Origin: Flavobacterium sp. HJJ | GTDB taxonomy: Bacteria; Bacteroidota; Bacteroidia; Flavobacteriales; Flavobacteriaceae | Assembly: GCF_015351475.1 (NCBI RefSeq) | Contig: NZ_JADKPR010000004.1 | Span: 1-64,000, forward strand | DNA length: 64,000 bases | Direction: 5' to 3' | Shown: positions 61,655 to 64,000 of the stretch, piece after piece | Position numbering within the stretch: position 1 is the first letter of the stretch | Layout of the letters: every line of letters begins with the position of its first letter | Notes under the pieces: model-generated | Told to the model about the DNA's origin: nothing | Database searches by the model: none | The model's input: only the letters and a program-made list of their open reading frames with translations | Translations under genes and position numbers: made by a program

Positions 61655-62464
61655 ATGAATTACACCTACATTATTATTGATGACGATTCGGAAAGCGTTT
61701 TGAGAACGAAGGCAATTGCCAGCGAATTTTCAGAATTAAGTTTTCTTGCCTCCACTGATAATTATGCAGACGGCGTGAATCTAATTTTAGAACATATGCC
61801 AAGGCTCATATTTTTAGAAATAGATCCAATTGACAAAAACAGTAATTTATCATTACAGTTAATAAACGGATTATTAATGTATTTAAAAGAATTACCAAAA
61901 ATTGTTATTACAACCAAGAAAAAAGATTTTGCTTTTGACTGCATAAAATATGAAGTTGTAGATTATTTATTAAAACCATTATTAGTAATTGATTTTGTAA
62001 AACTGGTTCACAAACTGAATAAAATAAACACAGAAAACGAAATAGTTCTTGTTCAGAACCCAAGTTCTCAGGAAAAACAGAATCTGGAAAAAATTGAATC
62101 TAGGAATAGTAAAAAATCATTCATCTTATGTGTCAAATCATATGGCGATCATAGATACATTGATTCTGATGAAATCTGCTATTTTCAAGCCGATAATAAT
62201 TCTACAGATATCCATTTAAAAAATGGGGAAATGGTAACGGCTTTCAAAACGCTGAAACATTTTGAAAGTGTATTGACAAACCCTTTCGTTCGAATCCATA
62301 ATAGTTATATAGTAAACCGTAATTTTATTTCTAGAATCCATACAGGAAACTCTTTGTGTTATATAAAAAAAACTACGATAAAACTTCCTTTTTCTAAGTC
62401 ATACAAAAGCAATATTGACTTTATAATTAGTGAATTTGCAAATGAAAATTATATAGAAACTTAA
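61655..62464 (+). CDS. LytTR family response regulator with atypical receiver
   Basis: This 269-residue protein has an N-terminal receiver-like domain (YIIIDDDSESVLRTKAIASE) and a C-terminal LytTR DNA-binding domain (about 165-262, with DEICYFQADNNSTDIHLKNG and VRIHNSYIVNRNFISRIHTG). The receiver keeps the two acidic residues and the LKP lysine loop (VDYLLKPLL), but the phospho-acceptor position reads LIFLEIDP, with Glu in place of Asp. It may thus be always on, or controlled without phosphorylation. It is followed by a small exported repeat protein and a TPR lipoprotein. Confidence 0.88.
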   Translation: MNYTYIIIDDDSESVLRTKAIASEFSELSFLASTDNYADGVNLILEHMPRLIFLEIDPIDKNSNLSLQLINGLLMYLKELPKIVITTKKKDFAFDCIKYEVVDYLLKPLLVIDFVKLVHKLNKINTENEIVLVQNPSSQEKQNLEKIESRNSKKSFILCVKSYGDHRYIDSDEICYFQADNNSTDIHLKNGEMVTAFKTLKHFESVLTNPFVRIHNSYIVNRNFISRIHTGNSLCYIKKTTIKLPFSKSYKSNIDFIISEFANENYIET

Positions 62465-62638
62465 AAAATAGCCGTTCACATAGAATTGCTATCCATTCAC
62501 TATCAGACGAATACCATTGACCATAAACAGCTGTTTTTAAATTGTTTATCCAGGCTTACTGTTTAGTTTTACTAAAGAATTCCAACACAAACGGAATCAA
62601 AAAAGTAAAAAATAACAACAACATAAAGCCCAGAAATC

Positions 62639-62887
62639 ATGAAAAAAGCTGTCTTAACAATCGGATTATTTACATTAGTATTAGTATCAACTTCATTCAC
62701 TTCTCCTCAAAATTCAACAACTGTAATTGATGACTCTTCAGTAATCACTTCTATCGATGGAACAGGCGGACAATCAAGCGGTGATAACAGAAAAGTAGAT
62801 TATACCGGTGCCTCTTTAAAAAATCAAATTGTTGAAATTGATGGAACTGGAGGACAATCAAGCGGAGACAATAGAAAAGTAGACTAA
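62639..62887 (+). CDS. Small exported protein with two identical 16-residue repeats
   Basis: This 82-residue protein has a signal peptide (MKKAVLTIGLFTLVLVSTSF) and two exact copies of IDGTGGQSSGDNRKVD: residues 39-54 and 67-82, the second ending exactly at the C-terminus. The DNA of the two copies differs at seven codons, and all seven differences are synonymous. It is followed by a terminator and preceded by a LytTR regulator. The layout suggests an exported peptide precursor, but no family is recognised. It could also be a small surface or matrix protein. Confidence 0.7.
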   Translation: MKKAVLTIGLFTLVLVSTSFTSPQNSTTVIDDSSVITSIDGTGGQSSGDNRKVDYTGASLKNQIVEIDGTGGQSSGDNRKVD

Positions 62888-62900
62888 AAATACAAAACAT

Positions 62901-62936
62901 AAAAAAAGGCTGTCAAAAAATTGACAGCCTTTTTTT
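62901..62936 (+). terminator. Terminator after the repeat protein
   Basis: The stem AAGGCTGTCAA / TTGACAGCCTT with a 4-nt loop, flanked by A and T runs, is very strong. It separates the small gene from the TPR gene. Confidence 0.92.
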
Positions 62937-62952
62937 ATACAAAAAGATTTAG

Positions 62953-62960
62953 TATTTTTG
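62953..62960 (+). promoter_or_regulatory. -7 element of the TPR lipoprotein gene
   Basis: TATTTTTG fits TAnnTTTG and lies 20 bp before the TTG start. The only nearby TTG (62921) is too far away for a good -33. Confidence 0.5.
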
Positions 62961-62980
62961 ATACAATTCAAAATTCGAAA

Positions 62981-64000
62981 TTGAAAAAAAATTACTACAT
63001 ATTGCTCTTTTTTTTAGCAATTTTTATGGGTTGCACTAATAAAAACAAATCCAGAAAAAATATTGTATCCTCTGAAGACAGCCTAACCACCTATCTGTCT
63101 CTAGCCAATGATAACAACGTAACTAAAGAATTAAAACAAAAATACACCCGCAGAGCCTTTGATATAATAATTAATCAAAAAGATGATTCAATTAATAAAG
63201 TCAATCTTTTCAAAGTAGCCAACCGCTATTATAATATGAATGACTGGGAAAGATATTTTGAAATATCTAAACTTATTTTAGAGCGGTCAAACAACAGCCT
63301 AGATACAGTACATGCAGCCAAAGCATATGTATATCTGGGGGATTATTATCAAAAAAAATCCATTTCTGACAGCGCTTTTTATTGCTATTATAAAGCTGAA
63401 AAATTTTATCTCAAACTTAATGACAATTATAACATTGCCAAAACACGAATGAGTAAAGCCAACCTGAGATTCAGTGAAAATGATTTATTCGATAGCGAGA
63501 TTACTATTTTTAAAGCTTTACGGATTATAAAACAAATAAAAGCAGACGATTTATTATACCAGTCTTACAATCTTTTAGGAATTTTATACAATGAAAGGGA
63601 AGAATACAGCAAGTCCTTAGAATTCCATAACAAAGCTTTGGCGAGTTTAGACGGAAATACAATACCCGCAGAATTTCAGTCGAAAGCCACTTCTCTAAAC
63701 AATATTGGTTATGTATATTTAAACTTAAAAAAATATGAGCAAGCCAAGAATTATTTTAAAGAAGGATTAAAACAAGAAAACCTATTTGTCGAAAAAGCGT
63801 CTTTATATGCTATGCTGCTGGATAATCTGGCTTATGCCAAATTTAAACTTAAAGAGACAAAAGAACTCCCTAATATGTTTTATTCAGCATTAAAAATTAG
63901 GGATAGCTTACATCTTACTTCAGGAATAATTATCAATAAAACACACTTGTCAGAGTACTACGCATTTCAAAAAGATACTTTAAAAGCAATTCAATATGCA
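62981..64000 (+). CDS. TPR lipoprotein, 3' part missing (probable LytTR/kinase partner)
   Basis: From TTG 62981 the frame stays open to the end of the window (340 codons). No in-frame ATG lies upstream. The lipoprotein signal is KKNYYILLFFLAIFMGC (Cys18), followed by tetratricopeptide repeats: SYNLLGILYNEREEYSKSLE and SLNNIGYVYLNLKKYEQAKN among others. In Flavobacteriia such proteins often end in a histidine-kinase or LuxR-type domain, but that part lies beyond the window, so this cannot be decided here. Position and orientation suggest a link with the LytTR regulator and the repeat peptide. Confidence 0.75.
   Translation, partial: MKKNYYILLFFLAIFMGCTNKNKSRKNIVSSEDSLTTYLSLANDNNVTKELKQKYTRRAFDIIINQKDDSINKVNLFKVANRYYNMNDWERYFEISKLILERSNNSLDTVHAAKAYVYLGDYYQKKSISDSAFYCYYKAEKFYLKLNDNYNIAKTRMSKANLRFSENDLFDSEITIFKALRIIKQIKADDLLYQSYNLLGILYNEREEYSKSLEFHNKALASLDGNTIPAEFQSKATSLNNIGYVYLNLKKYEQAKNYFKEGLKQENLFVEKASLYAMLLDNLAYAKFKLKETKELPNMFYSALKIRDSLHLTSGIIINKTHLSEYYAFQKDTLKAIQYA

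Follow-up and report, generated by a model that had tools for sequence, protein, structure and literature searches.

A candidate polymorphic peptide-signalling cassette built around a TPR sensor kinase in Flavobacterium

Organisation and distribution of the cassette

The window (the whole stretch of 64,000 nucleotides that was analysed) lies on contig 4 of the source genome of Flavobacterium sp. HJJ (G000), which comprises 5.05 Mb in 92 contigs. At its end we found a cassette of four genes that encode a LytTR regulator, a small peptide precursor of 82 residues, a TPR sensor kinase cut by the edge of the window and, beyond that edge, a response regulator (Table 1). A preliminary description of this DNA had proposed a cassette made of a LytTR regulator, an exported repeat-peptide precursor and a TPR receptor, and comparison with other genomes supports this proposal. 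Of about 130 loci fetched, 128 contain both the LytTR and the TPR kinase genes, and in all 128 a homologous precursor is encoded between them. The gene order glyS - LytTR - precursor - TPR kinase - response regulator - thiL was observed in the first 20 loci checked, as far as the stretches reach.

Good-scoring precursor matches were obtained in Flavobacterium only (100 related genomes searched), the named relatives of the LytTR protein belong nearly all to this genus, and of 399 genomes of the genus only 169 have a close LytTR. The cassette itself contains no gene for a dedicated protease or exporter.

Table 1. Features of the cassette. Positions refer to the window unless a contig (C4) is given.
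Feature	Position	Strand	Basis or remark
LytTR-family DNA-binding regulator, degenerate receiver (Glu55 in place of the acceptor Asp)	61655..62464	+	Pfam LytTR, E 1.8e-15
Probable LytTR operator, direct half-sites ATTCACTATCA (62495-62505) and ATTGACCATAAA (62516-62527)	62495..62527	+	Alignment of 121 intergenic regions, several columns invariant
TAGTTTTAC, candidate -7 promoter element (Bacteroidota type, TAnnTTTG-like)	62564..62572	+	Conserved block in 121 intergenic regions
Peptide precursor gene, 82 aa	62639..62887	+	ORF; homologue in 128/128 loci with LytTR and TPR kinase
Sec-type signal peptide MKKAVLTIGLFTLVLVSTSFT, no lipobox	62639..62701	+	Near-constant in 128 precursors; cleavage site putative
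Repeat unit 1, IDGTGGQSSGDNRKVD	62753..62800	+	
Repeat unit 2, IDGTGGQSSGDNRKVD again, 7 synonymous differences, abuts the stop codon	62837..62884	+	
Intrinsic terminator AAAGGCTGTCAAAAAATTGACAGCCTTTTTTTATAC between precursor and kinase	62905..62940	+	
TPR sensor histidine kinase, TTG start; the first 340 of its 681 aa lie in the window	62981..64000	+	TPR_12, HisKA_3, HATPase_c
NarL-type response regulator, outside the window	C4:65026-65721		ATG overlaps the kinase stop codon (TAATG)

Precursors and their peptide units

The small gene encodes, as first described, a signal peptide and two identical units, the second of which forms the C-terminus. Across the 128 precursors the signal peptide hardly varies (F11 in 89%, L13 in 94%, T18 in 96%, S19 in 99% and F20 in 97%), and the C-terminal 14-mers comprise 116 distinct sequences among 128 species. 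The tails carry species-specific units in one to six copies, usually flush with the C-terminus and ending in [K/R]-x-D, for example (IIGGNATGGNMKLD)x6, (LVGGASAGGNKKVD)x4 and (IDGGSRQIKTDN)x4. Two to six copies were detectable in 83 precursors (the last one flush with the C-terminus in 66 of them), and one or none in the other 45; the final residue is D in 113 of the 128 precursors and the end conforms to [K/R]-x-D in 112. The repeat itself, which the preliminary description expected homologues to conserve, is not clear in 45 of 128 precursors, which in part counts against that description, although these keep the LytTR and TPR neighbours; most of them still carry the [K/R]-x-D end, and each holds two candidate ligand segments.

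The peptides are hydrophilic and rich in Gly, Ser and Asn, with Cys in only four of the 128 precursors and none in that of the window. The window precursor gave no Pfam or NCBIfam match above cut-off and no match to the AgrD family, and no credible Pfam or NCBIfam family was obtained for its relatives within the cassette. Matches to Flg_bb_rod (in one precursor) and to a zinc ribbon (in another genus) concern very short stretches of repetitive sequence and were taken as chance, and the ComC model reached E 0.043 in one relative only, below its cut-off. Two precursors (L047 and L159) have an extra C-terminal tail past the unit (DKVKDWWNGL and DKISDWWNRL), and in L159 a second precursor gene lies alongside.

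The two 48-bp copies in the window differ at seven bases in seven codons, all synonymously, an outcome with P = 1.5e-5 for seven random base changes. Between unit copies of the same gene, over the 83 repeat-bearing precursors, pS was 0.37 and pN 0.049, which gives a pN/pS of 0.132 (bootstrap 0.10-0.16); the corresponding ratio of the window LytTR gene against its nearest relative was 0.058. As neighbouring genes thus show similar ratios, we kept the all-synonymous argument apart from the main evidence. Taken alone, these differences are weak evidence: they testify to purifying selection of the ordinary kind, and the strong selection on the peptide claimed in the preliminary description goes beyond them. 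That description also argued against recent duplication. Recent tandem duplication or gene conversion can be discarded as the full cause of the repeats in most repeat-bearing genes, given the many synonymous differences between copies whose peptide was kept. The unit is thus held constant inside a gene, in contrast to its almost complete change between species.

TPR sensor kinase and response regulator

Extension of the sequence past position 64000 completed the TPR protein to 681 residues (G000:C4:62981-65023 plus the stop codon, ending at C4:65026; full protein in locus L032). The neighbours named in the preliminary description were correct as a LytTR and a TPR protein; the latter, then taken for a plain surface lipoprotein, is a membrane sensor histidine kinase with a lipobox. 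Its architecture consists of the lipobox, the TPRs, a transmembrane stretch near residue 420, and the HisKA_3 (Pfam E 1.5e-6) and HATPase_c (E 1.4e-10) domains. The lipobox Cys18 is present in all 128 kinases and the phospho-His487 in 127, and the phospho-acceptor Asp of the response regulator is kept in 126 of 126; the combination of HisKA_3 and HATPase_c with a conserved His and a partner receiver Asp is that of a two-component system of the NarL/UhpB type. The TPR part would accordingly be periplasmic, in a kinase lipid-anchored in the membrane and coupled to the response regulator.

The TTG at 62981 is probably the kinase start, judging from the relatives, where TTG was assigned in 120 of 128 cases, 108 of these without a nearby in-frame ATG. 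A weak start that is conserved in this way might serve to limit the amount of receptor. At one locus (L075, genome G196) the kinase frame stops early, leaving an ectodomain of about 144 residues in the frame taken, possibly by a frameshift.

An AlphaFold2 model of the ectodomain (pLDDT 90.4) has LGN, Rap-Phr and kinesin light chain among its structural neighbours. The Rap-pheromone complexes 4gyo, 6t46 and 8rtc match it with a TM-score over the query of 0.54-0.57, and many other TPR proteins match equally well or better. Because TPR folds match so broadly, these matches support peptide binding weakly.

LytTR regulator and intergenic elements

The LytTR regulator reported upstream of the precursor was confirmed by its Pfam domain (Table 1). 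The Response_reg match in the same protein fell below the Pfam cut-off, and 125 of 126 orthologues have Glu where the acceptor Asp is expected, so that the protein is probably not a standard phospho-switch.

The consensus of the 121 aligned LytTR-precursor intergenic regions reads ATTsACTATCA, TTnACCATAAAC and then TAGTTTTAC. The ACYAT cores of the two half-sites lie 21 bp apart, and LytTR operators are typically direct repeats about two helical turns apart; we infer that LytTR binds here. With no mismatch allowed, the operator pattern occurs once in the 5.05-Mb genome, at this very site. A genome-wide search with the pattern for a LytTR regulon gave no second convincing site, and a control match of similar quality arose. 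The TAGTTTTAC block, by its sequence, may act as a promoter element. Between precursor and kinase, a terminator-like site occurs at the same place in 126 of 128 loci, against 9 of 128 after shuffling; since the precursor has its own terminator and this is conserved, it is probably a separate transcript.

Covariation of the unit with the TPR ectodomain

The link between precursor and receptor assumed in the preliminary description is strongly supported, as the unit both coevolves and recombines with the TPR ectodomain. In distance comparisons over about 125 loci, the unit and the ectodomain remained correlated when the kinase domain, LytTR and response regulator were taken into account (partial Mantel r 0.32, p 0.001). 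The controls showed no such relation, either for the unit against the kinase domain (partial Mantel r -0.004) or for the signal peptide against the ectodomain (r 0.017). A weaker residual correlation between LytTR and the unit (0.16, p 0.001) is not fully explained. Among sister pairs, the distance between units increased with the ratio of ectodomain to background distance (rho 0.49, p 7.5e-4).

Per column, coupling to the unit exceeded 0.15 at 41 ectodomain positions, against two in the signal-peptide control, while the kinase domain gave 11 such columns for the unit and for the signal-peptide control alike. It peaked at ectodomain residues 272, 240, 263, 237, 234, 205 and 198. On the AlphaFold2 model, where placement was judged from helix boundaries only, most of the top-coupled residues fall on or beside the A helices of three consecutive TPRs, with a spacing of about 35 residues. 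In TPR proteins the A helices line the concave groove.

By eye, units of the type GG(S/T)R..K(T/S)D(N) go with the receptor letters G/S-T-I-L-I-D-D, and units of the type NQS.GxDKKVD go with R272. On the tree, 5-6 of 7 independent pairs showed the link between D-K-K and R272 in one direction, and none showed it reversed (median p 0.03). The GG(S/T)R..K(T/S)D class has only one or two origins on the tree, so that coupling at the level of residues is partly clade-driven.

Mosaic blocks between species

In sister pairs with changed units, the LytTR protein, the signal peptide, the kinase from about residue 400 to 680 and the response regulator are mostly about 87-98% identical, against 38-75% for the mature peptide, and kinase residues 1-400 lie far below these flanks. 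For example, between L144 and L149 identity is 96% in LytTR, 92% in the signal peptide and 97% in the response regulator, against 49% in the mature peptide and 61-74% in kinase residues 1-400, with an ectodomain pS of 0.76 against 0.08-0.22 in the flanks. In three sister pairs the pS of the block was 0.73-0.76, against 0.08-0.34 in the flanks. Such high synonymous divergence within the block indicates exchange with a diverged allele and not mere selection for change. The weakest example is L102/L104, whose units differ by one residue and whose mature regions are 84% identical, and the divergent block is absent from the unit-identical pairs L113/L121 and L116/L117. The reverse case was also found: the distant pair L107/L141 has a common unit and 92-98% nucleotide identity over kinase residues 1-360, against mostly 60-82% in the flanks.

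Movement of signal and receptor as one block would be difficult to account for if the two had no functional link. The signal and the sensor domain of its receptor have diversified jointly while their flanks stayed conserved and, as far as sequences can tell, this variation is the pattern of a pherotype cassette, that is, one that sets the specificity of both signal and receptor.

Related loci with other TPR kinases

Divergent TPR kinases (26-45% identical) of Flavobacterium and other Flavobacteriales are also preceded by a small exported ORF, at most 500 bp upstream, in 32 of 41 cases against 1 of 229 control genes, and the tails of these precursors are short and conserved.

Individual loci differ in their arrangement. 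At three of them (L171, L172 and L174, in G032, G012 and G023), two adjoining and otherwise unlike precursors stand right before the TPR kinase and have their last residues in common; the shared ends are of the TPxxIIKRD type, as in GTPLVIIIKRD and RTPIIIIKRD. At L203 and L204 (G354 and G317), four to five tandem genes for small lipoprotein-like precursors lie before a divergent TPR kinase, with variable middles and the end ETDPxIIPKKD or nearly so (TDPVIIPKKD, TDPIIIPKKD). Repeating the unit within a gene and repeating the gene itself both look like means of raising the peptide dose. In another genus (L214, G502), a precursor with about six CDDCAHDSDDRETLA repeats, Cys-rich and unlike the Flavobacterium units, has a LytTR gene on one side and a TPR kinase on the other. 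The source genome itself encodes a second TPR kinase (L163, G000:C27:8189-9754), preceded by a small lipoprotein-like ORF that ends in QTPLPPPKH.

Proposed mechanism and alternatives

We suggest, with a probability of roughly 0.7, that the cassette serves peptide signalling as a polymorphic pheromone system. The mechanism would comprise five steps: (i) the small precursor, by its Sec signal peptide, is very probably exported to the periplasm; (ii) proteases might then free a peptide of 14-16 residues ending in -D, its several identical copies raising the dose; (iii) this peptide would bind to the lipid-anchored kinase encoded next to it, in the concave groove of the TPR ectodomain, a step for which coevolution argues strongly; (iv) from what is known of these families and from the conserved His and Asp, the kinase would phosphorylate the NarL-type response regulator whose gene directly follows its own; and (v) LytTR may control expression of the precursor gene by binding the direct repeat that precedes it. 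In groove binding, the -D end may resemble the EEVD ends that carboxylate-clamp TPRs bind.

In its fullest form, which we hold to be about an even bet, this proposal describes a dedicated pheromone system of Bacteroidota with true pherotypes: a multi-copy precursor gives rise to a peptide ending in -KVD, which passes through the outer membrane and is sensed by a TPR kinase in the periplasm. Flavobacteriaceae would then have a larger class of small exported precursors, each with a short conserved C-terminal tail and placed directly before a TPR kinase, and the cassette would be one of its branches.

The best-surviving alternative, which we still regard as unlikely, is periplasmic self-sensing, in which the precursor reports export or periplasmic proteolysis to the kinase of the same cell, as a ligand-receptor pair with no signal between cells. 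The precursor carries a Sec signal, the cassette has no outer-membrane export gene and the TPR receptor, by its predicted topology, faces the periplasm, so that the loop could run within one cell. Yet whole specificity blocks are exchanged and the units are hypervariable, and a private sensor has no obvious gain from joint swaps of ligand and receptor. We prefer communication between cells because the simplest reason for such diversity is to tell a cell's own signal from those of its relatives.

Two further explanations are far less probable. Multi-copy core peptides and fast diversification are known from bacteriocins, some of which induce themselves through a two-component system, and the repeats might be antimicrobial (bacteriocin or RiPP-like) peptides sensed by a kinase that regulates their production or immunity; this is hardly to be expected of a cassette without any gene for a modifying enzyme, an ABC exporter or immunity, and of hydrophilic peptides outside any credible family. 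Equally improbable is hitchhiking with the ectodomain by a small envelope protein that has unstable repeats and no relation to the regulators around it: one recombination tract can indeed carry both neighbours, but the signal peptide in the same gene is uncoupled from the ectodomain and the kinase domain in the receptor's own gene from the unit, the strongest coupling is confined to the TPR A helices, the repeat peptides are kept identical despite synonymous change, and small exported ORFs recur before the divergent TPR kinases.

If peptide signalling is the right reading, a large environmental genus communicates in a code that is diversified and specific to each species. Since genomes reveal the sequences of both ligand and receptor, synthetic 14-16-mers allow a direct test of specificity; the coupled residues offer ready predictions of how the TPR groove reads the peptide, and the mosaic blocks are a natural experiment on the movement of signalling specificity between species.

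Comparison with known systems

A literature search returned no description of this system, nor of peptide communication in Flavobacterium or other Bacteroidota; subscription journals and preprints lay mostly outside its scope, hence novelty is unproven. Among layouts known from elsewhere, precursors of the yeast alpha-factor type also carry several identical peptide copies in series behind a signal peptide, but their sequences are unrelated, the KEX2-like paired-basic spacer has no counterpart here, and the receptor here is a bacterial kinase. FimS/FimR and other TPR histidine kinases of Bacteroidota share the combination of TPRs with a histidine kinase; the NCBIfam FimS model matched kinase residues 83-239 with E 3e-6, far under its curated cut-off, and no score came near that cut-off.

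The RRNPP(A) regulators (Rap, NprR, PlcR, PrgX, Rgg) use a TPR groove as peptide receptor, as is proposed here, and the ectodomain model matches Rap-pheromone complexes. They are, however, cytoplasmic, with an HTH or Rap effector, and read peptides that are re-imported, whereas the TPR part here follows a lipobox (its Cys in 128/128) and precedes a transmembrane HisKA_3/HATPase_c kinase.

Kinase-based peptide quorum sensing is well known in Gram-positive bacteria. The agr system (AgrBDCA, in Staphylococcus and other Firmicutes) resembles the cassette in its exported peptide, histidine kinase and LytTR-type regulator, and in the joint variation of signal and receptor sensor as specificity groups between conserved flanks. 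It differs in that the Flavobacterium cassette has no AgrB membrane peptidase among its neighbours (glyS, LytTR, precursor, TPR kinase, response regulator and thiL) and, with Cys so rare in its precursors, no sign of a cyclic thiolactone; its sensor is a TPR domain and not an AgrC-type transmembrane sensor, and its LytTR, in which Glu replaces the acceptor Asp, is unlikely to act as cognate phospho-receiver. ComCDE and ComQXPA (Streptococcus, Bacillus) share with it a polymorphic peptide and a co-varying kinase sensor domain on a conserved kinase core. They differ by a double-glycine leader or an isoprenylated ComX, where the cassette has a Sec-like leader and no cognate ABC transporter/peptidase, and by the multi-copy units and Gram-negative host found here. 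Taken together, the cassette is real and probably a new polymorphic peptide-signalling system, based on a kinase and belonging to none of agr, Com or RRNPP.
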